The position numbers and the translations under genes were made by a program. 64,000 nt of DNA, taken from Mytilus galloprovincialis (lineage: Eukaryota > Mollusca > Bivalvia > Mytilida > Mytilidae). Below, piece by piece: positions 31,875 through 59,547 of the stretch. Below the pieces are notes generated by a model that did no database searches, was not told where the DNA came from, and saw only the letters and a program-made list of their open reading frames with translations. The first letter of the stretch is position 1, and each line of letters starts with the position of its first letter. The DNA lies in the NCBI RefSeq assembly GCF_965363235.1, contig NC_134841.1, positions 38,345,440-38,409,439 on the forward strand, read 5' to 3'.

Positions 31875-34800
31875 ATGAAGACTCTTTTATATTTGACAGT
31901 CCTAGTAGGGATTTGCTATGGACAAGGTAAATATATATATGAACAATTACATTTTGTTATTCTTACGTATTTTTCTCTCTCCTAGATTTACATAATATCA
32001 ACAGAGATTCGGTATTACAATGGGTAGTAAGTGTACACCATCTTCTGGCTGTTTTGTTTTTGTACTAATTTGAACTGATTCATACAGAATTTTCTCAAGG
32101 CTGAAAAAATGTAAGCTTCGAACAAAATTCTGTAATTCATCATTTAGATATATTGACGATAACACCTGCCACTCATTTTCCAACCTTGTATCTCATATAT
32201 CCATGTTAACTTGAGATAAAGGTTACTACCGAATCTAGAATGTCTTTTCTACGTCTTAATCTTTTCTGTGACAAAATGATTTCATCTTCCAATTACGCAA
32301 CAGAAGCATATATCCTCTGGCCAATCGTATATCTACTTTGGTAGACGAAACGCACGTCAGTCGTACACAATTTCAATCTTGGTACGCATGATGAGTTTAT
32401 TTACTACTAAAGTTTAAATATTTGTTTTATAATGGTCAACAAAACTACGTGCATATACCATTTGTTTGGTACACAATATATACTTTATATATTTTTTAAA
32501 TCAATCTTAAATTTATTTAATTTTTTGTTTTTAGGTTTGCAAAAAAGTATGAACTTGATCTTGTTTTTTTTTTTTTTTACTTTTATGAAATTTTCCAGGC
32601 ATTATGTTGCCATTTTGTGTTCTCTGAAAAGCTACTTGAAAGAGCTTTAATTGGATGTACGAGTATAACTAATTTTATTTGCTAATTGGAAATTAAGCGG
32701 AATAAAATAATTTAAGACAGCAGAGAAGATAATTCTGTTTTAATTGGTTATTACTTACCGACTTAAATAAAAGAGTGAGCTATTAATACTGTAAATGTAT
32801 GATGTCTCTAGTCTGATCAAAGGGTCAGAGTGTCCTACTTAATTAAACGATAAATTGTTGAAATTAGATAACATGTTTTCACGTGCAGAGAAATTTCACT
32901 TATGACCAATGCATCTTTCTTATTGGTCAATGATCTTGCGGGTCAGTACGAGTTCACGTGTAAGTGTATTGTGGTCACTTCCTTTTATCATCAGCATTTG
33001 ATGTGTTAACTTGTGATTCTTATCAAACAATTTGTTCAAAATTTCCACCCACATACCGCCCTTAATGTTATCTTTTGAAGTAGATATGTATATATAAAAA
33101 GTAAAATCACAAAAATACTGAACTCCGAGGAAAATTCAAAAAGGAAAATCAAAAATCAAAAGGCAAAATCAAAAGTCCAAACACATCAAACGAATGGATA
33201 ACAACTGTCATATTCCTGACTTGGTACAGGCATTTTCTAATGTAGAAAATGGTGGATTGAACCTGGTTTTATAGCTAGCTAAACCTCTATGTTTATTTAT
33301 GGGGCAGATTTTTCTCCCCACCTTTGCTATTCTTTGTCATGACCAATAAGAAAGATGCATTGGTCATAAGTGAAATTTCTCTGCACGTGAAAACATGTTA
33401 TCTAATTTCAACAATTTATCGTTTAATCAAGTAGGACACTCTGACCCTTTGACCAGAATAGAGACATCATACATTTACAGTATTAATAGCTCACTCTTTT
33501 ATTTAAGTCGGTAAGTAATAACCAATTAAAACAGAATTATCTTCTCTGCTGTCTTAAATTATTTTATTCCGCTTAATTTCCAATTAGCAAATAAAATTAG
33601 TTTTAAGACAGACAGCTAGATATCATAAACATACTATGTATACACAAGCCAGAGTCTGAGCTTGATTTGCTATATGATATAAAAACTAAACTGACGAAAA
33701 AAGGTCATTTATTCAAAATCATAAAATGCAAAAAATACATTTTGCAAATAAAACATTTGACATAAAAGTTCATATCTAATATGAAATAATAATACATAAT
33801 TAATACGAAATTACATCAACTAATATCATGTCAATTGAATAAATGACAAAGAATAGCAAAGGTGGGGAGAAAAATCTGCCACAAATCCACTCTTAGGCTG
33901 AAAGAGTGGATCTGAAATCCACTTTAAGGCTGAAAGAGCGGATCCCCCACCCGAGGACTCTGGCGACGTGAATACAATTATATATGACTTTAAAAAAAAA
34001 AATACATTCACATACATGTACACCAAACACATATCACTTTATTATGTAAAACGTTTCCACATTTAGCAGAAATATTAAAAGTTCATATTATCATATACTA
34101 AGATATTACTGGTAAAAATGATTAAAGGTGTAAATCTTATTCCGGCCAGTGAAAATTCAAACAAAACTAAAGTTCATTTTTACGAAGCCCTGGATCCTTC
34201 CTAAATACGAAGTTTTATATCTAACTATTTCTGTAAGGGATCATGAGCAAAGGATTCTCATACTACACTTAACATTTTTCAATCGAAAATGTATAAATAT
34301 AAAAAAGAAGATGGTATGATTGCCAATGAGACAGTTCCCCACAAGAGACCAAAATGACACGGAAATTAACGACTATAGGTCATCGCACGGCCTTCAACAA
34401 TGAGCAAAGCCCATATTGCATAGTCAGCTATAAAAGGCCCCAAAATGACCATGTAAAACAATTCAAACGAAAAACTTAAATGTTAGACATAAACAAACGA
34501 CAACCACTGAACTACAGGCTCTTAACTTGGGACAGGCACATACATACATAATGTGGCGGAGTGAATTCCATAGGGTAAAAGTTTTTAAATTAAAATTAGT
34601 AAATAAGTATTTAGTTTAAACCTTATTTAACTCTCAGTTAATTTTGTTGTGATCCGAATTGATATGAGACTATAGAAATAATTTTTGTAACTCATGATAC
34701 GGTAAAAAGAAAAGTTTTAGTCACAATTTTTAATATACAGCTTTGTAGAAATTTAATGACTGGTGAACATCACCATTCAATATTAATAGTAATAATATCA

Positions 34801-37800
34801 CTATAAAAAGGGGGTATACACCAAACTTCAGTCCGGGTTAAATAACAAAATGCAATCAAATTTAGAAAATGTGATACATTGTAATTGTCGCCTATGGTAA
34901 CAGAAAGCTGCAAACAACGCACCACTGATGTACACAGATTTTTATAATTTTTGCCTATTATGTCTGTTTGTTTTTTTGACACATCGTTGTCAATATAATG
35001 AAATTTTATACGACTGTCATACAAGAGAGAAGTTTACCTAGCTATAAAACCAGGTTAAATCCACCATTTTCTATATACACATGTAAGAACTTTCCGTCTT
35101 GGATTTTACTCGGATATAACTTAATTTGAAAAACAATACAAGAAAATAATTCATTGGTCTGGATGAATATAGAGCGATATTTAATCATAAATAATGAATA
35201 AATGTACATTATTTAATTTAGTTGGCAGTGTAAATGTGTTAAATACATAAATTGTATAGTTGTAGTATATTAATATTATAACAGCGATTTCGCAAGTATC
35301 CTGTTGTTGTTTTAAAGCAGACACATTAACTGTAAGGTTCCACCAATAGAAAGTACTGCCGACAACGGCATCAAATGTAAGAAAACGTCTTTGGAATATT
35401 GCCACACTAGCTTTTCTAGGTGCGGAAAAGATGTGATATAAGAATGGTCTCTATCTAAATGTAAGTTGTCCATTGTTTATGTGGTTCATAAGTGTTTCTC
35501 GTTTCTCATTTTTTTTATATACATTTAGATAAGACCGTTGGTTTTCCCATTTGAATGGTTTTGCACTAGTCATTTTTGGGACCCTTTATAGCTTGCTGTT
35601 CGGTGTGAGCCTAGGCTCCGTATTGAAGACCGTACCTTGCCCTATAATGATTTACAATTATAAATTGTGACTTGGAGGGAGAGTTGTCTCATTGGCACTC
35701 ATGAGCACTCATAGTCTCATACCACATCTTCCTATTATCTTATTAATTAGTTTTCCCAGTACTCGTTTCAGTAACAGTCTGAGACTCAAAGAGCTGTTCA
35801 GTCTATTTGAATTTGAAATAAAAATATAAAATAAAACCTATAAAAGATTTCCCCGGATCTGAGCCCCGGATCTTTGCTTAAATATCAAGATGATTCATGA
35901 ATGTGCTTATTAATACTGACAAGTTGCCAAATTGCAGTCATTAAGTCTCGTTTCTGAATATATAATTCAATCTTTAGAAATACGACATTTTTTTTGTTAG
36001 AACATCAAAGTACATACTTGATGCTAAGTTACTGTAAATTTTAAAATGGAACTAGATGACTTTTCTATTAATAGTCCTGACGTAAAGAGAGCCTGTGCAT
36101 ATAGGCGGTTTGTTATTTCTCTTTGTCAAGTTAGATAACACGTTGAATGTATAATTATATACTTGTTCTTTTAGTGTAACAATATGGTTTTTAGCATTAT
36201 AAATAACTGTTCAATATTTCTAGACGACGTATTCAACGTGACAAACACAGTTCCCCTCTTTTTTTTTTAAATAAATGGTAGTTTTTATATTGTTGATTTT
36301 AAATGCAGAGAATGTTGTAAAGACAAGACGGCGCGAATAGCGCACTAATTAAAGTCTTACATCTGTGATGCGGTTTAACCCTTGTCAAAGAGATATGATC
36401 AATCAAGAAATGTCAATCAGTAAATATTTCTTATAAATGTTATTTTATTAATTACAGGAAGAGATAACCAAGGCACAGAGTTTTTGCTTGGTTTTATGAA
36501 CAACAGAGGTAGGTAGTTTACAAACTGTCAAATGATACAGTAGAAAAATCTAAACAATCCTCTGTATATCAAAATGATATTCAATAGGATTGCAAAAGGT
36601 ACATAAGGCAGTTTCGAATCCAGAGGGCAATGGGTTTTGGGATTCGATGCGTCCTTTATTTTTCCTCCCTTTTTTCCTCTTTGAAAGAAACACATTGAGG
36701 AGAATTTCATGTTTTAAATTGTACACTTAACTTCCCATTTTATCTATATAAAAATAAGTTGCTGTGGTATGATTGCCAACAGTAATCAACGAGGAAGATA
36801 AGATTAAATAATATACGTCACCGACGGCCTTTAACAATGAGCAACCCCTATTCTATATAGTTACCCTGGCTATAAAAGGTACCGACGTAAGCACTATGTA
36901 AATACACATCTTATGATAAACAAACTTCCAATTTTACTGGTTTCTGTGATCTTGATCAGGTTGATAGCTACGGATCATAGCTTCCATCAGTCAAATGCCA
37001 TCGAAATTAAGGGCATCTCATTTTTTTGACAAACTTGAAGTCCTAAAAAATGTGTATGCAGTGATAGAATTAAAATTGAGAATGGAAATGGGAATATGTC
37101 AAAGAGACAACAACCCGATCAAAGAGCAGATAACAGCCGAAGGCTACTAATGGATCTTTAATGTAGCGAGAAAAGCCCTCATTCAGTAGTGGGCATCAGC
37201 TGGCCCCTAAATAAAAATGTGTACTTATTCAGTGAAAATTGTCATCAACTAAACTCAGAAATATATTATTAAATGAACTAAAATTAAAAAACATACAAGA
37301 CTAACAAAGGCCAGAGGCTCCTGAATATGGACAGGCGCAAAAATGCGGCGGGGTTAAACATGTTTTGTACGATCTCAACCCTCCCCCTTTAACTCTCGAA
37401 AATGTATAATAAATAAACTCATAGCAAAACGATGAGTAAAACTCAGTTAAAAAGAGAGACGAGTCCAATTTCAGAGTAGGTAACAAAAGCAACTGAGCAA
37501 AATGACAATGATACATAAATTAACAAAGGACTACTAGTTACTAAAATGTCAACCTTAGACCTCAATTAAACTAATAGAAAGTTTATCTCTTCATTATAAG
37601 TACATTTATCTTTAAAATATTTATATTACTTGGTGCTTCCGCATTTCCAGAATACTAAAAATGCTCTCATCGTTGTTTAAATGTGCAAGCGTTTGTATTA
37701 AACTTTCTTTTCATCTTAACAAGAGGCGGCCAGAGCGACAGCAAACCGGATTTTATCACTTACATTAACAACATATAAAAATTTTAAAAATTTGGTTAAA

Positions 37801-40800
37801 CAATCCACGAGTTAAAGTACGGACATGACTTGAAACACCACTTTTCAAATTCTTAAGGACCATAACTCCTAATATCAAATTTGACTTCCATTTTGTCATC
37901 AATAACAATATATCAACATTTGAAAAGCTTTGATTGTATGGTTCATGAGTAAATGCAACGACATGACTGGAGACACCATTTTTTCAATCTTTCAAGAGCC
38001 ATAACTCCTGAAAAGTAAAAGTCAAAATCGTCATTATTTAACTTGACCGCCATTTTGTCATCAGTAACAATATATTCAAATTTGAAAATCTTTGGTTGAA
38101 CGGTTCTTGAGTAAATACACGGACACAACTGAAATCGCCTATTTTCAATTTTTCAAGACTCATTACTCCTGTAAGGTAAAAGCCAAAATCGTCATTATTG
38201 AACTTGACCTCCACTTTGTTGTCAGTAACAACATATTAAAATTCAAAAAAACTTTGGCTAAACGGTTCACGAGTTAATGCACGGACAACATTATGCTGCC
38301 GTCCACCCGACCACTGTGCGCCCCAAAATCAGAAACCGACATTTTCGACGAAAATCCGGTTAATAATAGAATCCTCAAGGCCATTAATATATATTTATAC
38401 CTTACACATTCTTACTAGTTGAAATGGTATGTTTTCTATAGTTTCAGGATCATCAACTAATGACCTTGAACTCTTTGTGACCACAAGCTCTAACGCAGCA
38501 GTAGATGTAACGGTAACAGCCCCTTTATATTCACCCGGAAGTACACTTGCGTCTACAACTGTTACTCGTGGTAATATTGAAAAGATAACCATAACGATGA
38601 ACCTTCGCGGGGCAGATGTAGAACTAGGAAATAAAGGTGTCTTGGTCGAAGCAACAGACGAAATCACCGTATTCGCTGTAAACAAAGAGTTATACTCCAC
38701 AGATGGATTCGTAGGTTTTCCGACCGACACATTAGGAACAGAATATGTACTGATCACATGGTCTGAAGACGGACAGTTTATGGTTGTTGGCGTAACTGAT
38801 GGAACCACTTTAACCATTACACTTCCGACATTTGTATCTACTACCTTATCCGTTACATACAACGGCAATACATATACTAATGGTGATTCATTCACCGTTG
38901 TTCTTGATCGCTACCAAACATTTCATTGTCATCAAACCAATGGTGACTTCACCGGAACAAGGATCCAATCAACTCATCCAGTATCAGTTTTCAGCGGAGC
39001 TAAAAAGGTAGCAGTAGAAGATACAATGACAGGTTCAAGTTCTGACCATCTTGTAGAACAGCTAATGTCAGTGGACACTTGGGGCAAAGACTTCTTCACC
39101 ATAAGTACACCAGAAAGAACTATTGGTGATTACTTCAGAATAGTCGCAAGTGAAGATTCTACCACTGTGTCATTGGCCGGTTCAACACATGGAACCATCA
39201 ATGCATATGAATACATTGAACTGAACGTCGACACAGGGGATTATAAAACCATTACATCTGACAAAGCAGTCATGGTCGTTATGTTCGGGAAAACCGTTAG
39301 TTCCCAGGTTGGAGATGCACCTAATGGTGGTGATCCACAGATGACGGTGATACCACCTCTTCCCCAATTTCCGTCAGACTATACCTTTAGCACAGTTGAA
39401 ACACCAAGCGGTGATTTTACAAATTACGCCCTGATTGTTATAGATACATCAAAAACTTCCGATTTAATGGTTGACAATGTTGCTGCAAGCGCATCATGGA
39501 CATCGATTGCTGGGTCAGCCAATTTGGTCACTGCAACGTTTGATATAAGTCCTGGTTCACACTCAGTCTTCAGTAACGACCCGGCTGCAACTTTCATGGC
39601 AATAGCCTTCGGCAACGCTCAGACTAATTCATATGCTTATGCATGTGGTTTTCGATTAGCACAAATCAATGCAGTAAGTATATAGATTTAGCCGTTTCAG
39701 AATCTAATGCATTCTGGGTAATATTTCCAAAAGTGTATACCAAAACGTAGTGATTGGTTTAAAACGTGATATACAATAGAAATTCAACCAATGACGTCAT
39801 GCTATTTTCAATTTGGTGTACGAACAATGAGATTACCCATAGTCCTTTAGATTTTGGAAAGGTGAATAAATACAAAAAGTAGATAAAAAAAAAAGAAAAC
39901 ACTGATGGTTTTAATCCATGTAATTTGTACTTCAGCGCTGTGTAAAAAAAAACATGTCGTCACCTCTTTGCCTATCAAAACTTATTGTTTCGCCGTGTGA
40001 TATTATTTGTTTTCGAGAAATTCTGCTTTTAATTGCATTCGATGAATTAGTATTTCCTTTTTGTATATATTTCAACACCAGAAATCCTGATGTGATGCTT
40101 ACTTTCACTCGCTAGGTTTTTTTTAACAAATTTAATTATTTCTTTGAATTTAACAAAAAGAAAAAAAGAAATATCAGAAAGTAGATAGCTTTCTTAGACG
40201 GTGTCATCACAATGCCTTACTGTCTTGTAGTGTCTGTAGTTCGTTAAAAAGTATTATTCGAAATATCATTTTAAACAATTGTAGCTTTAGTAAGTATATT
40301 GATATCGAAATGTATTATATTTCAAATGAAAACCCAGTGCCCAATTCTTGTTTTTTCTTTCTTGTATAAAATGATACAAAACAACTTCGTTATACCATCG
40401 AAGTATTGTATACACTAATGAATATAACTCTTTCATGGTTAAACGAATCTTAAATGCCATTAAAAAAGAGGATCTGTAGGTGATAAAAAGAATGCATTAC
40501 ACAAAAAATACATAGATAAAAAAATAATTAATCGATGTGAAACCGACTTAATACGAAATACAATGTATGTAATAGAGTAATTTTTGTATTTTGGGTTTAT
40601 GAAATAATATTTACCCTTTTTTTTTACAAAACTTATGCTTATCAACGATTTTAAGTTAGATTATATAATTTGCCTGCATTGAAAAAATATTTTCTGTCAG
40701 ACTTTAAACGAAAAATAATTAAACCGTCAAATTTGGCAATATTATAGACATATGCAAGGGATTAACAAATATCAGTTTGTATGTGAATCCTGCCCTCAGT

Positions 40801-43800
40801 CATAAATTCAAGAGTTAATATAATACATTTGTATTTATCATAGCCATGTAGCACCACATCAACAGTTGCCGGTGACATCTTGGATAACGATTGTGATGGA
40901 TGGATTGACGAAGAGACCGACAACGGAATAGGTAATGTAATACAGGACCCGGATAATAATCAAAACCCCACGAGGAGGCTCAATATGTGTAGTTATAATT
41001 TGAAGTGTTACTTATATAGCTGAAATGTAGCACAATTATGTAACAATATGAATCAAATGAAGAAAGTGGTTATGTAATTCAAGTAATACACAACGAAACT
41101 TGCATCAAATCAATGATATCCACTTGATAGTTGCTGTCAATATTTTAAAAAGATTCAAGTATTTACTGTTCTCGTCTAGATTTAAAACAAAAAGACTGGT
41201 AATTGCTAAGGCATTGTATACATGTTCGACAGATGACTAAGGGACGACATCAAAAGATCAATGTAAGATAAAAAACTTAATTCAAATAGTTTGGGGGTGG
41301 GGGGGTTGAACTGCTGCAAGATTTGGTTATCCGACATTGATTTTTACATATACCTATATGGGTCAATCGATTTTTCCCAAATTAAGTTAAGAGGGGGGGG
41401 GGGGTCAGTGAAAAAAGTATGTGAATTAAGTTTTTTATCCTTCATTGAACTTTTGATGTCGTCCCTAAAATAGCCTATATCCAGAGAGTCATCACAGAGT
41501 GTGGTTTCAATTTTGTTTAAAGATTCTTTGTGTCGTACATGTACATTGTACCATATATATTTCATACCTAACGTTAAGCAGTTTGCAGCTGTACAGATAT
41601 AGATAAGATCGAAATCAATTATAAATAGTTTGTATTTTATTTTTCGAAATAAAATTTTGTCTTTTTTCAATTGTATGAATTCAAATTTCCCTTCTCGGCA
41701 TTTTATCCAAGGGTGGGTTTCGTTTTTTAATGTGATTCTTTGAAGAACTTTCCTCTAGGCTAACTTAATCAATTAATAAAAATAACAAAACAATAACACA
41801 TGCATCTTGATATCGGACATTTTTTTTATAATTGCAGACGATGACGGTGATGGATTGATAGATGAAGATTTAGCTACTGCTCCACGAGGTAATAATTGTA
41901 TCATATTTATAAAATGATGATTTTCCACGTTCAAGTTCCATATTTACACATAGAAACTTATTTAAAATGTACGCTTGATAATTCCAAGATTAAAAAAAAA
42001 ACTTTCCTGTTAATGTCTCACGTGGGAATAAATATTATTCTGTCAATTGTATACGTTTCTTTTCTTTTTTTCAGTTGACGGAAACTGGGCAGCTTGGGCT
42101 GCTTGGAGCGCATGCTCCGTAACTTGCGATTCTGGATCCGGTTCACAGATCAGAACGAGAGCATGCACAAACCCTGCTCCTGCGAACAATGGATTGGATT
42201 GCACTGGTGATTCATCCGAAACACAGTCCTGTTCATCTGTCACGCCTTGCCCAAGTGCGTATATCCATAATAAGTCAATAAAATTTTGCAAGATAACCTA
42301 AATTACACGAATTCAGAATTGTAATCATTGTAACCCCTTAATATTTGTAGAAATAGTAAAAGTTACTTGAAAGATCAGATAGAAATATTGTAGGTACATG
42401 TATTGTGTAGACGTAAGAAAAATTGTGTGTTTCGCGGATATATATATATCAATACATTATTTAAAAAAAAATATTCGCAACTTATCTCGACACGGGCTGA
42501 TTAAGAACTCCCCCATACATGTACTTTGCTATTGTCTATGACAGCATTCTGACCCATTGACCTTTTGTTAGAATTTTTTATTATTTTTTTAATTGATTTT
42601 TCAAGGTTGCCTTATCCGTAACGTATATCGCTCATCGATGTTTACCGTAATAAAACTGAATAATTTAAACAAAGAATCATACACTAGCTGTGACAACATT
42701 TCTATCATTACAGTTGATGGAAACTGGGGATCATGGGCAGTATGGACTGACTGTATGGTGTCATGTGGAACTGGTGAAATCAACAGAACACGTGAGTGTG
42801 ACAGTCCAGCTCCTCAATATGGCGGGGACAACTGTACTACCGGAACTGCTGTAGAAACTGACAGCTGCTGGAATGGAACCTGTTACCCGTCAGTTATTGG
42901 AAATATTGATAGAGTATGTTTGTTATTATATATTACTCCATTTATTGGATTTTCTAATGTGGTTTAGATTTTTAGAAACGTTCTCTGATTGAAAAAAACA
43001 ACAGTCCATTATACAGCGTTTCAACAGTTGACAACACTGAACCATCAATTTAACATTGCAATTGAAGCTTCTTTAAAGTATTAAAAAACACAACAATCAT
43101 ATAAAAACAAGATTTGATGCTTTTTTATTGGTTGTATGCAAGGTTACTCAGTATAAAAATATATATCAACCTCGACATAAGACCTCGGTTAATATTAATT
43201 TTCTTGGGTCACCAATTGTATATTATGACATGGTAGAAAAAAATGACATTTTCAACTTTTACTGTGTACAATTTCGATAGCAGTTGGATAAACTTTAGAG
43301 GCCCCTCATGGGGGGGTCCTAGTAATCACATAATCACCATTTTTTTGCCAATATAATCACATAATCATTAAATATTTGCTTATCTTTAGTAATCAAATAA
43401 TCATAAACTAAAAATGCAGTCCTAGGTAATCAAATAATCATGAAATATTTGGCTTAATAATCAAATAATCATTAAAAAAACGGCCAAGTAATCACATAAT
43501 CAAAAACCCCATGAGGGCCCTCACTTTATAAGTGTTGACCTACATGTATATATGTTAATATAGTGCCTTTGTGTTATATAGGCGTGCTCGAATTCTCAAG
43601 GGAGGTCAAATATCAAATATATGTTTTTGGCATGATAGTTTCTTAATGTATGAAGGGTGAATTTCAATAGACAAATATAATCTAAATAATGTAATTGTTG
43701 TGCTTGTTTGGTGGTTCTACACGCAGCGTTCAAAACCCCTTTCAAACGCGTATTAATCTTGTCTTATGTTGGTATGAATACAGTTTTACCACTAATTCCT

Positions 43801-44983
43801 TCAAAAAAGATTACACAATTTTGTACCTTCTATTGCCCATAATTCAAATTATATGTCGCGCTTAATTCCATATTGCTTTGAGTGAAACGCTTACGAAAAC
43901 GTGCACTGTTTCATGTTTGTATACATCGATTTCAGAATTGTTCTTGGACATGGTTTGGATGTAAAGATGGTGCCATTACATGTATAGATTTCTCCTTCCG
44001 GTGTGATGGATCCGAGGACTGTGACGATGGCAGCGATGAGTCAGCAGAAATTGCAGGATGTCCAACACAGTGTAACGGAGCAGGTAATTTATTTTTAACG
44101 TGAGGTAACTGATCCGATTACGAAATGATATGATGGACAAGGTTTGTGATCACTAAACCAAAAATAAGTCGATGTAGTGAGATTGCCAATGAGGCAATTA
44201 TTGACAAGAGACCAAACGACGTATATATGTAAGCAACTATGGGTCACCTTACGGTCTTCAACAATGAGCAAAACCCATATCATATAGCTATAAAATCTCC
44301 CCGACAGAATAGAAAGTAATACAATTTAAAAATGTTGCTTTATCGGAGCGGATATCCTTCTCGAATAGAATTTGATAGATGTTTTGTTTTCATTATACAA
44401 CGGAGAAGGTCTGTAATTTTAAACAGGGTGTAACATAATTGTTGTTTTAATAAGGATGCAAAAGAAACATTGTTTTATTTCATTAATGATACGCAAGGTA
44501 TTATGAGCGCGAGGAAAGAATATAAACTAAAGAAATATTGAGCATTCGTTAATGAGACAAGAGCCTAACGAATCTAGACAACTTAATAAATGTCGAAGAG
44601 CTTTTCCAGATTTACTTTCACTAGGAACGTTCAAACTCTAGAACATTTTAAAACCAGGCTTGTGTAATACGTAGAAGCGTAAGAATCTTTATGACAGAAA
44701 CGGAGGAAAGAATAGACGAATTCAGTTAACATATGGTCGTCCTTTAATTAGTTATATCTCATTTCACGTTCTTCATTGCCATTAGCCTTAATGAAGTTAT
44801 GAATACTAAAGCGCAAAAACGAAAAATGACGTTATGTAAGTTATGGTACAGTTTCCAAGTATTTTTAAACGAGTAAGTGCTTAATTTGTCATCTTCTTAT
44901 TTTTAGGTACCATGTCAGTATCCAGTATTTTGATTGGTACGATTATCTGCTTCCTATATGTGACAATGATGGGACACTTTTAA
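31875..44983 (+). CDS. IgGFc-binding / TSP1 / LDLa surface protein A (690 aa, 9 coding exons)
   Basis: Coding exons: 31875-31926, 36458-36508, 38448-39673, 40844-40931, 41838-41888, 42075-42254, 42714-42913, 43936-44083, 44907-44983; total 2,073 nt, phases 1,1,0,1,1,1,0,1. Signal peptide 1-17 (MKTLLYLTVLVGICYGQ). Residues 18-443 resemble the IgGFc-binding N-terminal domain (Pfam PF17517): [33 protein letters not shown]. Residues 444-489 hold two acidic metal-binding motifs ([22 protein letters not shown]). TSP1 domains are at 490-549 and 550-616 with W..W..W tracts, and an LDLa domain at 617-665 has [13 protein letters not shown]. The hydrophobic tail 666-690 after CNGAG suggests a GPI anchor or short membrane span. 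An AG just before the ATG suggests a non-coding upstream exon. It is probably a cell-surface adhesion or recognition protein. Domain names are family recognition; anchoring and role are inference. AATAAA lies at 45085. Confidence 0.88.
32667..33603. repeat. Large inverted repeat in intron 1 of gene A
   Basis: Arms 32667-32929 and 33340-33603 (about 263 bp) are reverse complements with only a few mismatches. The ~410-bp centre contains an M5 copy (33090-33295). Arms include CACGTG and paired GACCAAT/ATTGGTC boxes. Transcribed within intron 1 it would fold into a very long hairpin. Confidence 0.93.
33303..33880. repeat. Second inverted repeat interleaved with the first
   Basis: 33303-33340 and 33843-33880 are a perfect ~38-bp inverted pair (GCAGATTTTTCTCCCCACCT ...). 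The left copy ends exactly where the right arm of the 263-bp inverted repeat begins, so the two pairs interleave and cannot both pair in one simple hairpin. Confidence 0.9.
33885..33960. repeat. Two tandem copies of a self-complementary ~30-bp unit
   Basis: ATCCACTCTTAGGCTGAAAG-AGTGGATC occurs, then a second slightly changed copy. Each unit is itself an inverted repeat (GATCCACT/AGTGGATC). Confidence 0.75.
34298..34575 (+). repeat. Dispersed repeat M1, long copy
   Basis: Full run of M1 landmarks: GGTATGATTGCCAATGAGAC, CCTTCAACAATGAGCAAAGC, GTAAAACAATTCAAACGAAA, CTTGGGACAGGCACATACAT. Used here as the reference for M1. Confidence 0.8.
34995..35085 (-). repeat. M5 fragment
   Basis: Contains TAGCTATAAAACCAGGTTAA, as in other M5 copies. 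Confidence 0.55.
35560..35735 (-). repeat. Dispersed repeat M1
   Basis: Reverse-strand landmarks including GAGTTGTCTCATTGGCACTC and ATACCACATCTTCCTATT. Confidence 0.65.
37075..37600 (+). repeat. Dispersed repeat M2 in intron 2 of gene A
   Basis: Matches 28950-29470 in order (GAGACAACAACCCGATCAAA, GACTAACAAAGGCCAGAGGC, GGGGTTAAACATGTTTTGTA). Its segment CATAAATTAACAAAGGACTA shows the undisturbed sequence at the point where the array at 1505-2325 interrupts M2. Confidence 0.8.
37785..38300 (+). repeat. Tandem ~140-160-bp repeat just before exon 3 of gene A
   Basis: About four diverged units, each with CCATAACTCC, CATTTTGTCATCA-GTAACAA, TTTGGTTAAACGGTT-type and ACGGACA blocks; starts near 37790, 37925, 38088 and 38250. 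It ends about 150 bp before the exon 3 acceptor. Confidence 0.8.
39700..39855. mobile_element. Possible small inverted-repeat element after exon 3 of gene A
   Basis: TTCTGGGTAATATTTCCAAA ... TATACC at the left roughly pairs with GGTGTAC ... GAGATTACCCATAG at the right. The match is imperfect, so it is only a candidate. Confidence 0.35.
41239..41468. mobile_element. MITE-like element with ~48-bp terminal inverted repeats (intron 4 of gene A)
   Basis: The left end AGGGACGACATCAAAAGATC continues to AACTTAATTCA. The right end is its reverse complement with few changes, finishing at GTCGTCCCT. About 230 bp in all, no coding capacity, with two long G runs inside. TA could be the target duplication but this is not clear. 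Confidence 0.85.
43298..43522. mobile_element. Small element with GAGGGCCCTCATGGGG-type ends, intron 7 of gene A
   Basis: GAGGCCCCTCATGGGG at the left and CCCCATGAGGGCCCTC at the right flank about 190 bp made of repeated AATCA(C/A)ATAATCA words (five to six copies), strongly AT-rich and strand-asymmetric. Confidence 0.75.
44160..44295 (+). repeat. M1 fragment in intron 8 of gene A
   Basis: Contains GAGATTGCCAATGAGGCAAT and CTTCAACAATGAGCAAAACC, in M1 order. Confidence 0.7.
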
Positions 44984-45084: not shown

Positions 45085-45090
45085 AATAAA
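45085..45090 (+). terminator. Polyadenylation signal of gene A
   Basis: AATAAA about 100 bp after the stop codon at 44983. Confidence 0.7.
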
Positions 45091-46439: not shown

Positions 46440-47140
46440 ATATATAAGAAGATATGGCGTGATTGCCAATGAGACAAGATGAGATATGGCGTGATTGCCA
46501 ATGAGACAAGAGGAGATATGGCCTGATTGCCAATGAGACAAGAGGAGATATGGCGTGATTACCAATGAGAAAAGAGGAGATATGGCGTGATTGCCAATGA
46601 GACAAGATGAGATATGGCGTGATTACCAATGAGACAAGAGGAGATATGGCCTGATTGCCAATGAGACAAGAGGAGATATGGCGTGATTACCAATGAGACA
46701 AGAGGAGATATGGCCTGATTGCCATTTCATTATAAATTAGGAGATATGGCGTGATTGCCAATGAGACAAGATGAGATATGGCGTGATTACCAATGAGACC
46801 AGAGGAGATATGGCCTGATTGCCAATGAGACAAGAGGAGATATGGCGTGATTGCCAATGAGACAAGACGAGATATGGCGTGATTGCCAATGAGACAAGAG
46901 GAGATATGACGTGATTGCCGATGAGACAAGAGGAGATATGGCGTGATTGACAATGAGACAAGAGGAGATATGGCGTGATTGACAATGAGACAAGAGGAGA
47001 TATGGCTTGATTGCCAATGAGACAAGAGGAGATATGGCGTGATTGCCAATGAGACAAGTATTCACCGGGGACCAAATAATGTAGAAGTTATCAACTATAG
47101 GTCATCGTATTGCATTCAACAAATAGCAAAAATCCAGACC
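46440..47140 (+). repeat. 32-bp minisatellite grown inside an M1 repeat
   Basis: About nineteen copies of a 32-bp unit (GAGATATGGCGTGATTGCCA + ATGAGACAAGAG) with GCGTGATTGCC, GCCTGATTGCC and GCGTGATTACC variants. The unit is the first segment of M1, and the rest of M1 continues at 47060-47140 (ACTATAGGTCATCGTATTGC). The array therefore arose by local expansion within an M1 copy. Open frames across it are by-products. Confidence 0.95.
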
Positions 47141-47935: not shown

Positions 47936-49605
47936 TCTTCAACTTTGTTTTTTATTTGGCCTTTTTAACATTTTTGATTCGAGCGTCACTCATAAGTCTT
48001 TTGTAGACGAAACGCGCGGGTGGCATCAATATAAAATTTCAATCCTGGTATCTATGATGAGTTTATTTAAAACCACTGGGTCGATGCCACTGCTGGTGGA
48101 GTTTTAATTCCCCGATGATATCACCAGCCAAGTAGTCAGCACTTCTGTATCACTGATGAATTTTTTTTAGACGAAACGCGCGTCTAGCGTAAATATGAAA
48201 TTTCAATCCTGGTATCTATGATGAGTTTATTTAAAACCACTAGGTCGATGCAATTGCTGGTGGAGTTTTAGTTACCCGAGCGTATCACCAGTCCAGAAGC
48301 AGCACTTCTGTGTTGACTTGAGTTACCATTGATATGTTCATAATTGTTAATTAACTGTTAACAAACTTTGAATTTTTGAAATACTAAGGCTTTTCTACCT
48401 CAAGAATAGATTACCTTAGCTGTATTTGGCATAACGTTTAGGATTTGGTGGTCCTCAATTCTCTTCAACTTTGTACTTTATATGACCGTTTTAACATTTT
48501 TTTATTCGAGCGACACTGATGAGTCTTTTGTAGACGAAACGCGCGTCTAGTGTAAATATAAAATTTCAATCCTTGTATTTATGATGAGTTTATTTACAAC
48601 CACTTGGTCGATGCCACTGCTGGTGGAGTTTTAGTTACCCGAGGGTATCACTAACCCAGTAGTCAGCACTTCTGTGTTGACTTGAGTTACCATTTATATG
48701 TTCATAATTATAAATTAACCGTTAACAAAACTTTGAATTTTTTAAATACTAAGGCTTTTCTACCTCAAGAATAGATTATCGTAGCTGTATTTGGCAAAAC
48801 TGTTAGGAAAGTTTTGATCCTGAATGCTCTTCAACTTCATTCTTTTTTTGGCCTTTTTAACATTTATGATTCGAGCGTCACTGATGAGTCTTTTGTAGAC
48901 GAAAGGTGCGTCTGGCGTAAATATAAAATTTCAATCCTGGTATCTATGATGAGTTTATTTAAAACCACTGGGTCGATGCCACTGCTGGTGCAGTTTTAAT
49001 TCCCCGATGATATACCAGCCAGCCAAGTAGTCAGCACTTCTGTTTCACTGATTAGTTTTTTGTAGACGAAACGCGCGTCTAGCGTAAATATAAAATTTCA
49101 ATCCTGGTATCTATGATGGGTTTATTTAAAACCACTGGGTCGATGCAATTGCTGGTGGAATTTTAGTTACACGAGGGTATCACCAGCCCAGTAGTCAGCA
49201 AGGCATAAATATAAAATTTTAATCCTGGTATCTATGATGAGTTTATTTAAAACCACTGGGTCGATGCCACTGCTGGTGGAGTTTTAATTCCCCGATGATA
49301 TCACCAGCCCAGTAGTCATCACTTCTGTGTTGACTTGAGCTATCATTGATATGTTCATAATTATAAATTAACTGTTAACAAAACTTTGAATTTTTGAAAT
49401 ACTAAGGCTTTTCTACCTCCAGGAATAGATTACATTAGCTGTATTTAAAAAAAACTTTAGGATTTTTTTATCCTCAATGCTCTTCAACTTAGTACTGTAT
49501 TTGGTCTTTTTAACATTTTTTTATTCGAGCGTCACTGATGAGCTCTTTGTAGACGAAACGCGGGTCTGGCGTAAATATAAAATTTAAATCCTGGTATATA
49601 TGATG
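47936..49605 (+). repeat. Tandem array of the ~360-bp repeat family
   Basis: At least six copies of the signature GACGAAACGCGCGTCT or close variants (near 48006, 48170, 48535, 48898, 49066, 49553), each followed by ATATAAAATTTCAATCCTGG and GGTCGATGCCACTGCTGGTG. Full units are about 361 bp; some are shortened to ~170 bp, so the array is irregular. Confidence 0.92.
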
Positions 49606-50270: not shown

Positions 50271-50425
50271 GTCCTCTCATGATGTTAGGTCTTTCTGTAG
50301 TAGGTTGCTTTCTGCTTGGTTACTTATTGTTCTGTGGAGGAGGCTGTCATTCGTAAATAGTTTGGTCTCTGATGATGTTGCTGTCTCTGGCATGTCGTTT
50401 ATGTAGGCCAGGAACAACAGGAGTC
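50271..50425 (-). mobile_element. LINE reverse-transcriptase fragment, palm region
   Basis: Minus-strand reading GLLLFLAYINDMPETATSSE then TKLFTNDSLLHRTI and LLQKDLTS fits the RT palm. FTND stands where active enzymes have F-A-D-D, so catalysis is lost. It continues into the fragment ending at 50110 once the intervening repeat is ignored. Confidence 0.88.
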
Positions 50426-50426
50426 C

Positions 50427-50840: not shown

Positions 50841-52540
50841 CTATGTCTAATGTTGGATAATCTTCAAATGGTTGGTTAAATTTAGCGTCCTTTTTATTTA
50901 CATTTTACTATAACACACCCGCCCATTCGTCACTTTTACAATAAATGTAGAAATTTAAGATGTTTTATTGTTAAAATTATGTTCTCTTCATTCAAACTGC
51001 TACCCACGCATCTAATAGTTACATCACTAGATTAAAATGAAAATCCCATGATTTTTTTTTTATCAAAGAATCTTTATCATATTCTGAGATTTAAAAAACC
51101 GATGTCGTACACCAATTTTATTTTTTAAATGTTTCTTAATTATTCATTTTAAAACCGAAAGATTATTTCGTTTATTGACTTGACAGTTTCACATTTGTAC
51201 GTCATTTTTTTTACATTTAATTCCTTAATTTTTTTTATATTGGTTTCTCAATTGAAATATGCTTAGATCACATATTTTTGTACCATTAATTAAAGAATCG
51301 AATTCTTTTGTACAGCACAACGATCTTCGTATTAAAAATATTAAAAATGTACACGATCAACCCTTTAACAACCCTATAAAATTATAAAAAGAAGCATTAA
51401 ATTTCATTCTTACAATTACATGTTGTTCAGTCGACAACCAAGAACTAAGAGTTATTCATACTTAAATTATTTAAGATAGTCATGGAGCGCATGTGAAGTC
51501 AAAGCTGTCAGTGTATTTCATTTGAGAAAAATAGGAGTATCTAGCGATTGTTGTTATCCAATCAAAATTACGGATTCTAATAAATGCCTTATAGGTAATT
51601 ATTTATAGATATGACTGTTTGTTCAAATGATATTGTCGCACAAATTCATATTCGCTGTAAATACACATTCTTCGGTTATTATAATTCCTTCACAAAATTA
51701 TTGGTTTTAGATTAAATAAAATTCATAATGATCTGCAGTATTTGGATTATTTATTAAATATTCAAATATCTTTTTAAATTATAATATTAAAGTTAAATAT
51801 TTTGGTTTCGAATTTCATAATTATTTCATTAAAATACGACCAAAAGTTCGAAGTATATTAACTAGTAAAGAAGATTACAGCAATAAAAATTGGGATCTTT
51901 CTAAAACTCTTCATCTTCAAGTCTAGGAACACAAACGGTATGTATTATAATGCTTTTGTTTTTGTTTTTTTTTTTTTTTTTCGCTTTCAAACATATTGAG
52001 GCTAACAGTTTAAACAAAAGGACCTCTGGTCCAAAAAGAACAGAACGGTAGGTATATAGTTATATCATTAGTCTTACACATTAAAACAAGGTACTAGTCA
52101 GAAATTTTCCTTATGGAATTTAACAGCGAGTACAAATGTACAAGTTGACGCCTGACGTTTTTGTTTATTTAAATTGCGCTTCTGTGTTTCATTTTCTACC
52201 CCTAACATATATAAGGGAATGTGAAATCCATATATATTCATTATTTATCATATTATATTTACATTGTCACAAGCTTCAGAAAAGAGAGTTAACACCGGAG
52301 GGAAAATATGATACAAACCCAAACGAAAAAATATAAACGAGTCTAAATGAAAACTACGTTTAAACCTATGATTGCGTTGGATAAAAATAAATATATATTC
52401 TGAAACTGCTACATTTTGAAACAACGGTAGTCGATTTTCTTAGACATAGACCATTAAGATTAGAAGACACGATGTATAGTATATTCTGTATTTGTTCATG
52501 AAAGCTTTCGCCTTTTTGAAATAATAACATTTGCATTTGT
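50841..52540. other. AT-rich upstream region of gene B
   Basis: No coding exon recognised. ACACAAACG|GTATGT near 51937 could be the donor of a non-coding first exon for gene B, whose ATG exon has a TTATTACAG acceptor just before it. The promoter itself is not recognised. Confidence 0.35.
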
Positions 52541-52542
52541 TG

Positions 52543-52765
52543 CCAATAGCTATTGCAATTGCTGATAATAGCTTTTACATTTGTTGATTATAGCTTTTGC
52601 ATTAGTTGATGCAATTGAATTGCATTTGCATTTTATGATAATTCCATTTACATTTGTTGATAATTCCATTTACATTTGTTGATAATAGCTTTTTCATTTG
52701 TTGATAGTAGTTTTTGCATTTGTTGATTAAAAACTTTTGTATTTGTTAATTATAGCTTTTGTGTT
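52543..52765 (+). repeat. ~22-26-bp minisatellite just upstream of gene B
   Basis: About eight to nine imperfect copies of GCATTTGTTGATAATAGCTT-type units, ending ~70 bp before the gene B start codon. Confidence 0.8.
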
Positions 52766-52834
52766 TGATTTTATCTATTTCCGTTGACCTTACTTGTTAG
52801 GCATGCTTATTTATTACAGATTTAAAAGCGAGTT

Positions 52835-55800
52835 ATGAGGACAGCTTTGGTTTTGGTGGCCCTCTTTGGCGCTTGTCTTGGACAAGGTAAGCTAAATAAC
52901 AAAACTATAAGGGAAAATTTACAAAGCTTTTGGGAAAATTATATAAAAAATAAAATATGCTAAATGCATTGTTCTTTACATAACAATACTACTGTGTCAT
53001 GATTAATATTATGTTAAACAATAACTCATTTTTTCAGGTCGGGATAATCAAGGCACAGAATTCTTGTTTGGTTTTATGGATAATTTAATATTTGGTGGTA
53101 AGTAATGACCCTTCTTTCAAAGTATAACACTAGAGGTATCGGGGGAGAGTTGAGATCTCACATAAAATGTTTAACCCAACCGCATTTTTGCGCCTATCCA
53201 AAAATAGGAGCCTCTGGTCTTTGTGAGTCTTGTCTTTTTTTTTAGTTCATTTGTATGTTTTGGAGTTTAGTATGACGTCTATTTTCACTGAACTAGTAAA
53301 CATTCTCATTTAAGGGGCAACTGAAGACCACCTCCAGGTGCGGGATTTTCTCGCTGCGTTGAAGGCCCACTGATGGCATTCGGCTGGTATCTGTTCTTTA
53401 GTCTGGTTGCTGTCTCTTTGACATATTCCCCAAATTAACTATACAATTATATCAAATATAGAGAATACGTAAAGAAAAATAAAAAAAAATCAACAATTAC
53501 ATTATTTATGTATATTCTGATGAAAATAATCAAAAAGAATAAAATTGATACAGTTGTAAAATTATATTCGTCATTTTTTACTTTTTACTAAAAAAACATT
53601 ATAATTCAAATAGATCAGGTTCTTTTCATCTTTTTATCTCTTAAAAGGTACAAACGGAAATGACCTCGAGTTGTTTGTAACAACATCTTCAAACACACCT
53701 GTAGATGTAACTATTACCGCACCACTTTACTCACCCGGAACAACTCTTGGATCAACCACTGTCAGCAGAGGAAATATAGAAAAAATAAGTCTATCTTACA
53801 ATCTGAGAGGGACTGGCGTTGAACTAAGCAACAAAGGAATTTTGATTGAGGCTACAGAAGAAATAACAGTGTTTGGAGTTAACAAGGAAACGTACTCTAC
53901 CGATGGCTTCGTTGCTTTTCCCACCGATACACTTGGAACAGAATACATACTGATCACGTGGTCCTCCGATGGACAGTTTATGATCACTGGTGTAACCGAT
54001 GGTACTACTGTGACTATTACACTTCCGACATTTGTTTCCACCACCTTATCAGTTAATTACAATGGGAACACATATTCCAACGGCGATTCGTTCACAGTTG
54101 TCCTTGATCGCTACCAGACATTTCACTGCTACCAAAGCAACGGTGACTTCACTGGAACAAGGATCGAATCGACGAATCCTGTAACAGTTTTTAGTGGTGC
54201 CAGAAAGGTTGGCGTCACTGATACCATGACAGGTAGCAGCTCTGACCATCTTGTAGAACAGATGATGGCAGTGGACACTTGGGGCAAAGACTTCGTCACC
54301 ATAAGTACACCAGATAGAAACGTAGGTGATTACTTCAGAATAGTGGCAAGTGAAGATTCTACCACCGTTTCATTTGGCGGTACAACACATGGATCCATAA
54401 ATGCACACGAATACATTGAACTGAATGTTGACACAGGGGATTATAAAACCATCACATCTGATAAAGCAGTCATGGTCGTTATGTTCGGAAAAACTGTTAG
54501 TAACCAGAATGGAGATGCACCTAATGGCGGTGATCCACAGATGACAGTTGTACCACCTCTTCCCCAATTTCCCTCTGACTATACATTTAGCACTGTAGAA
54601 ACTCCTACTGGCGATTTCACAAATTATGCAGTGGTTGTCATAGATACGTCAAAAGCTTCCGATTTGATGGTAGATAATGTTGCGGCCAGTACAAGTTGGG
54701 CTTCTATCTCTGGATCAGCAAGTTTGGTTGCTGCAACGTTCGATATCACACCCGGTTCTCACTCAATCTTCAACAACGACCCTTCTTCAACTTTTATGTC
54801 CATAGCATTTGGCAATGCTCAGACCAACTCATATGCTTACGCATGTGGATTCAGACTTGCAACTATTAATGGGGTGAGATTTATCTTTATTAAACAATCA
54901 AAGGAGTAGGTCCGGTAAGGACCGATTTTGGCTTCAAATTTCAGGTTCATCTGACGAAAGATTTTGACCACTTTTTAAACACTCAAGTATCTATTTTATT
55001 TGAATTAATTAGTTTATGTGAAAGATTTTAACAGATTTAGTCATTAAAAACGATCCGATTCAAGCTCAAATATGAAAAATCTACCTAATATGCCGAAAAT
55101 TGTCACTTTTCAGATGGTTTTTGGTAAAAATGAAAGTGGCCGCATCCGTGTTCATCCTCAACCTTTATATATGTTATGTATTATCATAAAATACAACTTA
55201 CATTTCAATATTAAGGATGAACACGAATGCGGCCACTTTCTTTTTACACGAAAACCGTCTAAAATTTAACTAAAATGCTAGAATTATGAGGATTTCAGTA
55301 ATTTAGCATGACTTAATGGTGCTAGCACCGGATATATGTGCATTGTATTGTCAAAAACAGCCCATATTTATGTAGCAGAAGCATTCTACTGTCCAATAAA
55401 TAACTAAAGGTTTACATTTTAACAATTTTGTAAAACTGCTATATTTTGGGGCCAAAAAGGGGTCTTACTGAACCTACTCCTTTGAGACGTTGTTTAAATG
55501 TCTGTTTAATTATTTTTTGGTTTGGTTTTGATTAAATCCTCATACAATTAAGAATATTTCAGTTTGTATTCTGTTGAAAACATCTTCGTTTCCGAACTAG
55601 CTACAATGTATGTCATACACATTTGTCATAATGATCCAATTGTACGTCTTGCGCATGTGTAACATATTTTTTGTTTGCTGCTTACTTGATATATGAGATG
55701 TGTTCGGGAGTTTTGTTTGTCTCTTCCTTATTACATTTATCAAAAAGTTATTCTTTTATAATTCAGCCATGTAGCACCACATCGACAGTGGCTGGTGATA

Positions 55801-58800
55801 TAGTGGATAACGATTGTGATGGATGGATTGACGAGGAAACTGACAATGGCATTGGTAAGTCATATATCTATTTTTTCTTTTAAATGCGATTTACTCATTC
55901 TTACTGTATGATACGAAAACAGTTTTTGAGATTATTGTTATGTCTTGTAAAATAGAAAAAGAAGAGATATAATGCATCTGCTGCAGCCAAGAGTGTACTT
56001 CTTTCTCAGTAATCAGTTTTGATATATTTGAGTTTTCGATTTTGTGTAGTTTTTTTTTCATAGTTTTGTATGTCTTTGTTTCAAGTTTTTCTTTCAGTCA
56101 TTGTCTGTTGTTGCTTAAAGATTACTTAAAAGTAAGGAACTATAGACACTTATTTAAGATACATTTTCATTGAAGTATGTGTAATATAGAATTAACCTCT
56201 TCCATTCCAATGTAGGTGCATGGATAACAATTCTACATTAACATCTAAAATTGTATCATTTAATTATAGATGATGATGGTGATGGATTAATAGATGAAGA
56301 TTTAGCAACTGCTCCACGAGGTGAGTCTTATTTAATTGATTGATTGTTTGTTGCTTCTTGTCCAGTGGCAAATATTTCATGCATGTTCAGGACGATAGTT
56401 TTATTTGATGTCAGAGCCGTATAATAATAATATTTTTTGTTATTTATAAAGATAAAAGCAGCTGATTTTTACAGTTAGCTATGTGTTGTGATATTAAAAG
56501 CACAACCACAGGTTACATGTTATCCCCAGCATGTGCTTAATGTGTCAGTCCCAAATCAGGAGCCTGTAATTCAGTGGACTTATTATTTATCAAATTAATT
56601 CGTGTCTGTCGTATTGTTTTTTTTTTTTTTTAATTGAATTACTATAATTTAACCCTTTACTACTCTCATTATAATCGTTTCACAATATAATTCATGACAG
56701 GCCTTTTATAGCTAAATAACGGTATTTGTTTAACTCGCTGTATGTTCACACTGTTTTGGTGTAGCTAGGTCGTATATGGAAATATACAAATAAGAAGATG
56801 TGGTATGATTGCCAATAAGACATCTCTCCACAAGAGAAAAATGACAAAAGGACACAAAAATTAACAACTATATATATATGCGTTTTTATCGATAAAAATG
56901 ACACAAAAATTAACAACTATATGTGTTTTTATATATCGATCATTGACCTTGCTTGCTGCCATTGGTAGCCTTTTACTCGTTTTAGAGAGAAATTCACTTT
57001 TCGCTATAGGATCATTATGGTTTTGGGTGGTTCCTTGCTGCTAAATCTAGTTTTTTTATTTTTATTTTGTGTTGGGGAATTATTACATGCAATACATACT
57101 GTGTCAAGACTAGATACACTCCTGTAACTATTCTTTGTCGAAATAACTGCATTCTGGTTGTGTCAGGCTACAACTGCCTTAGAAATGTGTTGATCAGATG
57201 GATTTAATCTACCATTACTTAATAAAACATGTTATTTCGTTCAATGGATTTTTGTATTTTATTTAAGTTAATGGAGACTGGGCAGATTGGAGTACTTGGA
57301 GCGCATGCTCATTGACATGTGATTCTGGTTCCGGAAGCCAATCTCGATCAAGAACATGCACAAATCCGGCACCAGCTAATAATGGATTAGATTGTTCTGG
57401 TGACTCGACAGAGACGCAGTCTTGTTCTTCAGCAGTACCGTGTCCAAGTAGGTATTCTATACTTTGTTTGAAAAGGAATTCTGTCGATATTAAATAACCA
57501 AAGTTAAACATACTCTAAATTTGAAACTGAAAACCCTGAATATTAAAATTTGTCATGTTACATTTTAGACTGTAAGACCAAAAATAAGTCAATCGTGTAT
57601 ATGAATAAATACACTAAAAATAAACCACCGGGTTAGAAAAATTAGCTTGTTATTTGCTTTTTTGTAAGCAGACATTCAAAAGATGGTAATTTATGACAAA
57701 AAACATGTTTTAACTCATTCGTCAATGAATTCTCCTTTCAATACAATTAACAATAGACTCATCCACTTCATATCATCTTTCCGTGGAATATTTAAGATAC
57801 AAACATCATGCCAAGAATAAAGATTAAATTGTAGACCTCACCACGAGGGTATAAAAGTGTTGAATTGAAAAGAAAAACACTCCAAAAGAATGTTTTCAAA
57901 GTGCAATATGCATTTCAGTTAGATGGAAAGTCAATATGTCTAAAAAGTCAGGTCAAAATACATACCTAGTCATATACGAGGGTCGTAATGGGGGTACCTT
58001 CATGATGAATAACGGTAAAAATTCTTGCCAAATTACGTTAACGGTAATTTTTGGTGTATGACAATAAAATGTACATTCCATTCTCAATTTTACTTTCTTT
58101 TAGAAGATAAAAATATCGACTGCATTTTTCAAACATATTTTCCAAAAATGACGGTAACGATGATTATTTGAGACCTCTAACACGATAAGGATTTTTTCAC
58201 GAATCACGGTAAAATTTTACACAGTGAATTTGACGCTAACGGAAGCCGAAAATGACTGTTTGACGCCTGGCGTTATAGGGCATTACTATAAAATATATCA
58301 TAACAAATACTATAAGAAATTATAGTTGTATTCATAGTCATAACTTTGTTACATCGACTAGTTTTTCTTATCAGCTAGGCTATTTCTACCCTCATATACG
58401 CAGTAACATAAATTAATCGAACATACATACGTAATTGATCATACAACTTTCTTCGAATTGCTTTTTTGAGATTGTATATTTCAATAATTATCGTGATTAC
58501 AGTTGATGGAAACTGGGGATCGTGGACTGGATGGTCTGACTGTATCGTGTCATGTGGAACTGGTGAAATCAACCGAACACGTGAGTGTGACAATCCAGCT
58601 CCTCAATATGGCGGCGCAAACTGTACTGGAACTGCTATAGAAACTGACAGCTGCTGGAATGGAACTTGTTATCCGTCAGTTATTGGAAATATTGATAGGG
58701 TATGTTATAAGTTATAATCTAGACAAAAAAAAACTTAAATTAGAAAATTGTATCAAAAGAGAAAAGAGAGAAAAAATTATGAAATAAGCATTCAATTCTA

Positions 58801-59547
58801 AATATAACATTTGTATGCTACCACTGTGAAATGACGAGTTTTGTCAAATATTGTATTTGAATGTTTCCTATGCATTGCTGTGACGGTGTAACGAGAACGA
58901 CGCGCTATCATGAATGCTACAATATGCTCTAAATGGTTGTCATCCAATCAAAAGTATAATTTTTTTCCGGCATGAAGCATATATGTAATGTAATTATATT
59001 GTCATACATAACTATTTTATTGTAGAATTGTTCTTGGACATGGTTTGGATGTAAAGATGGTGCCATTACATGTATAGATTTCTCCTTCCGGTGTGATGGA
59101 TCCGAGGACTGTGATGATGGCAGCGATGAGTCAGCAGAAATTGCAGGATGTCCAACACAGTGTAACGGAGCAGGTATGTGTATAAGATATATGTAGTATG
59201 AATCTCTAGAAAATACGACTTGTGTTGCTATATTTATAATTAAAAATCTTGTTTTTTAATGGATAATGACAAGTACTACAATCCTACCCATTTATTATTT
59301 TTTTCAAACTAGTGAAACATATTTAAAAGTACATAAATATAATATAAAGAAAATGAAAAAGGAGACCATACAAAAATATTAATTGCCATCACTACACCCC
59401 CCTCCCACACACACACAACGAATAAACTTATGACTTATAACAATTACTGTTAATTTTATTTTTTCAGGCGAATTGAAGCTCTCAACCATGTTGGCAGGTA
59501 CACTGTTAATGTTGCTGATAACGCTTAGTTTCAACAGCCGAATATAA
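52835..59547 (+). CDS. IgGFc-binding / TSP1 / LDLa surface protein B (693 aa, 9 coding exons)
   Basis: Coding exons: 52835-52886, 53038-53097, 53648-54873, 55767-55854, 56270-56320, 57268-57447, 58503-58699, 59026-59173, 59468-59547; total 2,082 nt with the same phases as gene A. Signal peptide 1-17 ([17 protein letters not shown]). The IgGFc-binding-type region 18-446 includes [11 protein letters not shown] and a large exon of exactly the same length (1,226 nt) as in A. Two DxDxDG motifs are at 447-492, TSP1 domains at 493-552 and 553-618, an LDLa domain at 619-667, and a hydrophobic tail [18 protein letters not shown] after CNGAG at 668-693. Introns are much shorter than in A. Exon 8 is almost identical in nucleotides to A whereas other exons differ clearly. 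Same probable role as A: a secreted-pathway, membrane-anchored adhesion or recognition protein. AATAAA lies at 59701. Confidence 0.9.
53130..53445 (-). repeat. M2 fragment in intron 2 of gene B
   Basis: Reverse copy of the first half of M2: GAGTTGAGATCTCACA, AGGAGCCTCTGGTCTTTGTG, AGTCTGGTTGCTGTCTCTTT. Confidence 0.75.
54898..55485. mobile_element. 588-bp MITE-like element 25 bp after exon 3 of gene B
   Basis: Ends are inverted: TCAAAGGAGTAGGTCCGGTA at the left, TACTGAACCTACTCCTTTGA at the right, with similarity continuing ~30 bp. An internal inverted pair (GAAAGTGGCCGCATCCGTGT at 55131; complementary near 55217-55242) makes a second hairpin. No coding capacity. Absent from the matching intron of gene A. 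Confidence 0.85.
56785..56945 (+). repeat. M1 fragment with internal duplication, intron 5 of gene B
   Basis: GTGGTATGATTGCCAATAAG then a doubled GACACAAAAATTAACAACTA. Confidence 0.65.
57955..58285. repeat. ACGGTAA-rich repeat in intron 6 of gene B
   Basis: Words AACGGTAA, TTACGTTAACGGTAATTTTT and ACGGTAAAATTTTAC recur five or more times on a 30-100-bp scale. Possible dispersed repeat; termini not clear. Confidence 0.5.

Follow-up and report, generated by a model that had tools for sequence, protein, structure and literature searches.

A tandem pair of Mytilus galloprovincialis genes joining an IgGFc-binding head to TSP1 and LDLa domains and a tail that resembles a GPI signal

IgGFc-binding proteins of the FCGBP type are mucus proteins, in which a PF17517 head lies near the N-terminus of a secreted protein and is followed by VWD-C8-TIL repeats. 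The two genes described here, A and B, place the same head near the N-terminus of a predicted secreted protein, but continue instead with TSP1 and LDLa domains and an anchor-like tail. For the TSP1 part, the best matches among solved structures are the TSP1 repeats of properdin (1w0r, E 1.6e-53) and thrombospondin-1, two proteins which, to our knowledge, carry neither an IgGFc head nor an LDLa domain. Complement C6 sets TSP1 beside LDLa as A and B do (its match, 3t5o, spans query residues 53-210, from TSP1 through LDLa), but it also contains a pore-forming MACPF domain, for which Pfam gave no match in A or B.

In molluscs, the available portions of the published reports describe IgGFc-binding proteins from adhesives and from shell matrix, list them among immune genes, and treat them as mucus-type proteins (among PMC6337334, PMC7333891, PMC6003135, PMC7430831, PMC11817969, PMC12055684). 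An oyster protein named 'Hemicentin-1' (CGI_10005627) has one LDL receptor domain and three TSP-1 domains, and thus resembles the C-terminal part of A and B as far as a comparison by description goes; unlike A and B, it has no IgGFc domain mentioned in the available part of that description (PMC6337334). Abalone shell-matrix proteins named as IgGFc-binding bear, in the accessible text of their report (PMC6003135), chitin-binding repeats like those of one mussel relative considered below (L014), whereas Pfam matched no chitin-binding domain in A or B. The preliminary description of this DNA had been made subject to there being no earlier account of the IgGFc-TSP1-LDLa architecture, and we found none in the literature searched (subscription papers lay outside its scope), where PF17517 is named in a single paper.

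The window, that is, the whole stretch of DNA analyzed, comprises 64,000 nucleotides of M. galloprovincialis (NC_134841.1, positions 38,345,440 to 38,409,439). By exon modelling on the sequence, gene A (31875-44983, plus strand) encodes 690 amino acids and gene B (52835-59547, plus strand) encodes 693, each in nine exons, with stops at 44983 and 59547, respectively. The exons, all on the plus strand, are as follows.

31875-31926, plus: gene A exon 1, signal peptide MKTLLYLTVLVGICYG, by eye
36458-36508, plus: gene A exon 2, from the gene model
38448-39673, plus: gene A exon 3, IgGFc_binding head (Pfam and PF17517 genome search)
40844-40931, plus: gene A exon 4, first DxDxDG motif, by eye
41838-41888, plus: gene A exon 5, second DxDxDG motif, by eye
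42075-42254, plus: gene A exon 6, TSP1 (Pfam)
42714-42913, plus: gene A exon 7, last TSP1, ending in phase 0 and first exon of the cassette (Pfam)
43936-44083, plus: gene A exon 8, LDLa, with C-terminal CNGAG (Pfam)
44907-44983, plus: gene A exon 9, hydrophobic tail with the stop codon; AATAAA follows at 45085
52835-52886, plus: gene B exon 1, signal peptide, by eye
53038-53097, plus: gene B exon 2, from the gene model
53648-54873, plus: gene B exon 3, IgGFc_binding head (Pfam and PF17517 genome search)
55767-55854, plus: gene B exon 4, DxDxDG motif, by eye
56270-56320, plus: gene B exon 5, DxDxDG motif, by eye
57268-57447, plus: gene B exon 6, TSP1 (Pfam)
58503-58699, plus: gene B exon 7, last TSP1 (Pfam)
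59026-59173, plus: gene B exon 8, LDLa
59468-59547, plus: gene B exon 9, hydrophobic tail with the stop codon; AATAAA follows at 59701

The outer limits of 31875-59547, the tandem layout and the nine exons per gene had all been given exactly in the preliminary description. Exons 1-9 enter in the same phases in both genes (0, 1, 1, 0, 1, 1, 1, 0, 1) and every internal junction has AG/GT; the predicted splicing is backed by this agreement of two parallel copies. Over 686 aligned codons, dN between A and B is 0.11, dS 0.91 and dN/dS 0.12, and because dN is low relative to dS, we consider the two genes to have been under constraint since their duplication. The same ratio rules out chance open reading frames, and pseudogene status was rejected since neither gene is interrupted by a stop. 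Judged from these data, A and B are intact tandem paralogues.

Between the two genes lie a minisatellite (46450-47058; 32-base unit, about 19 copies) and, at 48150-49043, an interspersed repeat (unit about 365 bases) present in tandem copies. Elsewhere in the window, glycine-rich, secreted-looking open reading frames with internal repeats occur at 6015-6932 and 18363-18923, both on the plus strand; neither has a Pfam match. Relatives of the 18363-18923 frame are found just to the right of the window (C4:38411755) and at C4:38246746. Our guess is that these frames are of shell or byssus type.

The domain content proposed in the preliminary description was borne out by the Pfam profiles, with every score above the gathering cut-off. 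IgGFc_binding (PF17517) scored 184.6 bits in A and 186.6 in B (cut-off 25.6), with nearly the whole 297-position profile covered (positions 2-297 in A and 1-296 in B). TSP_1 scored 67 and 75 bits over the whole proteins of A and B, respectively (cut-off 21.6; two stretches in each), and Ldl_recept_a scored 31.4 bits in both (cut-off 24.1), with all six LDLa cysteines present by eye. The two DxDxDG motifs claimed for each gene can also be recognized by eye. No Pfam model covers them at E up to 10, and at that threshold neither protein matched an EF-hand-like or MopE/TSP3-like calcium-loop family. The contrast that had been drawn with vWD-repeat proteins likewise stands: up to E 10, neither protein has a reported VWD, C8 or TIL match.

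The last three exons, encoding TSP1, LDLa and a short tail, behave as a cassette, which is found in genes lacking an IgGFc exon as well. Two such genes flank the pair: C, within the window, and D (L029), which sits about 8 to 10 kb past its right end.

23309-25752, minus: gene C, four exons, 158 amino acids, no IgGFc exon
25752-25689, minus: gene C, signal peptide exon
24796-24600, minus: gene C, TSP1 exon
24165-24018, minus: gene C, LDLa exon
23376-23309, minus: gene C, tail exon
C4:38417598-38419578, minus: gene D, 158 codons in four exons, for signal peptide, TSP1, LDLa and tail

Along the chromosome the four genes run C(-), A(+), B(+), D(-), and C and D differ at 36 of 477 nucleotides. In all four genes, a phase-0 junction separates the final TSP1 exon from the LDLa exon, whose other end is in phase 1; the same cassette phases can be read by eye in two genes elsewhere in the genome, L015 and L022, at sites that the donor pattern used had missed. 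The TSP1 exons farther upstream enter and leave in phase 1 in A and B, and have phase-1 donors in L015 and L022. From two genome searches we count twelve cassette-type LDLa exons: those of A, B, C and D, another four at C4:61.4-61.6 Mb, one at C9:24.38 Mb and three on C3 (two C10 matches, with E about 3e-4 and absent from the second search, are excluded from this count). Eight of the twelve come after an IgGFc exon, and four have no PF17517 match nearby (C, D, C3:40.75 Mb and C3:7.65 Mb). The genome search with the Pfam LDLa profile scored the best 150 of 993 candidates, which makes it unusable as a census, and that for TSP1 scored the best 150 of 776, its counts being lower bounds (at least that many).

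Divergence between A and B is uneven along the gene. In exon 3, which encodes the head, dN/dS is 0.104, and exon 7 is closer than exon 3, with a dS of 0.23. The LDLa exons (43936-44083 and 59026-59173) are identical at 147 of 148 nucleotides; they differ at 1 of about 30 synonymous sites, compared with 167 of 293 in exon 3 (binomial, 4e-10). In the 60 nucleotides of intron on either side of the LDLa exon, 21 and 20 positions match in ungapped comparison. Since the LDLa exons are nearly identical and the adjoining introns are not, exon-limited gene conversion is the simplest reading, and the pattern suggests a recent, exon-bounded conversion between A and B. Exon 9 does not share in this pattern.

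We then have to ask how widely the arrangement is shared. The genome from which the window comes contains 95 stretches matching PF17517, all above the cut-off, a figure that includes some stretches with stops and some exons counted as two stretches. One IgGFc exon copy with stops lies at C6:65015964-65016670, with an exon-4-like motif persisting at C6:65017799. When gene A exon 3 was used as the query, 19 loci, including A and B, scored above 200 bits, the next scoring 123. Bodies for the 17 close heads other than A and B were sought within 10 kb downstream from exon 3. TSP1 exons follow the head in nine of the 19 (A, B, L009, L013, L014, L015, L016, L017 and L022), and no TSP1 was found within 10 kb downstream in the other ten. 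LDLa follows within that distance in A, B, L015 and L022 and, by coordinates, farther downstream in L009, L013, L016 and L017. Eight genes thus have, by coordinates, the order IgGFc, two DxDxDG exons, TSP1s and LDLa on one strand. That the combination is special to the pair is not supported, given the recurrence of the full order in eight genes and the existence of its C-terminal half in genes without an IgGFc exon, such as C and D; uniqueness of the A/B pair was accordingly rejected. The architecture is real, recurrent in this genome and apparently undescribed.

Other close heads carry other bodies. In L014 (C6:10582368-10592367), TSP1 and CBM_14 come after the head (two of the four ORFs reported exceed the cut-off); VWA bodies are present in L010 and L011, with EGF confirmed in L010, and L025 has an EGF body (two ORFs given). 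Body types were assigned for 12 of the 19 close heads, with L012, L018, L019, L020, L021, L023 and L024 left out, and the more distant L026-L028 gave no match to any exon query. Gene A exon 4, as a query, found 19 matches in the genome at E up to 1, including A and B, and in 18 of these a same-strand PF17517 exon precedes the match by no more than 15 kb, the longest distance being about 14 kb (C8:72211531). The one exception is at C1:114141330. Because 18 of 19 matches trail a PF17517 exon, we regard the DxDxDG exon as belonging to the head.

In the ingroup tree, the heads of A and B group with the EGF and VWA heads (100/99), apart from the other six TSP1-LDLa heads, and a three-residue gap common to A, B, L010, L011, L023 and L025, seen by eye, agrees with this placement. 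When the distant L026-L028 rows and a bacterial row were added, the placement of A and B was weak (87/90). The ingroup tree does not show a single inherited TSP1-LDLa architecture: it requires two changes of that label or more, though its rooting with L026-L028 and the bacterial row is weak. The TSP1-LDLa body would therefore appear to be either old and replaced in some lines, or joined to heads twice. The bacterial relative (L030, from a Bacteroidales MAG) is 25% identical to the head and was the 1 relative among 88 stretches searched with one pattern, a number that does not imply rarity; none of 27 stretches from viral contigs was related. Neither single-sequence nor profile comparison gave a solved-structure relative of the head, and a structure model built from three rows (mean pLDDT 48.4) was too poor for fold comparison.

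The hydrophobic C-terminus noted in the preliminary description is real as sequence, its anchoring role being a matter of interpretation. The hydrophobic stretch is about 17 residues long in A and about 15 in B; the tail of C reads CSGADSMTMSVMLVASMWIFIKIFKQ, and a lysine lies inside the stretch in both C and D. Just before the last intron there are small residues (CNGAG, CSGA, CPNGS, CPSGAD, CPSAAP, CPSSAH). We applied a simple home-made GPI rule, distinct from a trained predictor, which looks for small residues, a spacer and a hydrophobic core near the end. Six tails fit it, from A, B, C, D, L015 and L022, as do 37 of the 572 remaining window frames that end in a stop; the fit of L015 and L022 is weak evidence, because their tail exons were picked as hydrophobic. 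Among further loci, L035 has a candidate tail that also fits the rule, L032 and L034 gave ambiguous candidates only, and no tail exon was found for L031 or L033. The tails of A and B have diverged strongly (exon 9 dN 0.68), with their hydrophobic character kept, and GPI-type signals often diverge while retaining their character. By this home-made rule the tail resembles a GPI signal, and A and B may well be GPI-anchored.

Taken together, a surface anchor is the reading we favour from sequence, and we give about an even chance to the fuller proposal that A and B are GPI-anchored adhesion or recognition proteins that arose by exon shuffling. The signal peptide would route a protein of about 690 residues into the secretory path, with a predicted layout of IgGFc_binding head, two acidic DxDxDG loops, two TSP1 domains, one LDLa domain and the hydrophobic C-terminal peptide. 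DxDxDG-type motifs and LDLa typically bind calcium, and probably do so here. The C-terminal peptide would probably be cut off as the GPI anchor attaches, the anchor then keeping the protein on the membrane. Sulphated glycans are common ligands of TSP1 domains, which also often form stalks, and the TSP1-LDLa part may be such a stalk for a head whose ligand, we guess, is a glycan or a glycoprotein. It is unlikely that the head literally binds IgG Fc, since this animal has no IgG. The head and DxDxDG exons would be one building block, and the TSP1-LDLa-tail, reused by C and D, another; the likely site of action is the cell surface or an extracellular coat, in adhesion or recognition.

It is possible, if rather doubtful, that A and B are instead secreted matrix or adhesive proteins, with the tail cleaved and the remainder becoming part of the byssus, mucus, cuticle or shell matrix, a fate put forward for other molluscan proteins bearing the IgGFc name. 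The glycine-rich, secreted-looking genes nearby, with the relative just right of the window, would suit such a role, but they were judged by eye and neither ORF is matched by Pfam. The TSP1-CBM_14 body of L014 also points this way, as do, in the available text of the reports, the six IgGFc-binding proteins and 'Hemicentin-1' of the oyster pediveliger-stage set (PMC6337334) and the chitin-binding abalone shell-matrix proteins (PMC6003135). Against it, the tails of all four genes at the locus fit the anchor rule, and the tail exons of C and D differ at only 2 of 68 nucleotides.

A diversified innate immune recognition family, in line with the immune receptor suggested in the preliminary description, is, in our view, unlikely. 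The expansion of PF17517 to 95 stretches would accord with it, as would a clam IgGFc-binding protein among genes changed by LPS/PGN, with negative values in the part of the list available (PMC7430831), but the A and B heads are under purifying selection (exon 3, above) rather than diversification. A single-pass transmembrane receptor whose cytoplasmic end is very short is quite improbable, for although the stretch in A could reach the length of a short helix and the L015 and L022 tails finish with a few basic or polar residues, that of B is shorter and followed by almost nothing, and small residues precede the hydrophobic stretch in every tail inspected.

More speculatively, and with little confidence in the scheme as a whole, the pair may belong to a combinatorial system in which a constant block of IgGFc and two DxDxDG exons is combined with interchangeable bodies (TSP1-LDLa-anchor, TSP1-CBM_14, EGF and EGF-VWA). 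The anchor cassette, present on its own on both flanks of the pair, would feed new fusions by exon-bounded gene conversion or shuffling, giving a repertoire for recognition or adhesion.

If confirmed, these findings would place the IgGFc domain on the cell surface and would mean that one head serves many bodies. The four genes C, A, B and D would then offer a compact locus for studying exon joining together with exon-limited conversion, and the family would caution against taking the name 'IgGFc-binding' as a sign of immune function.
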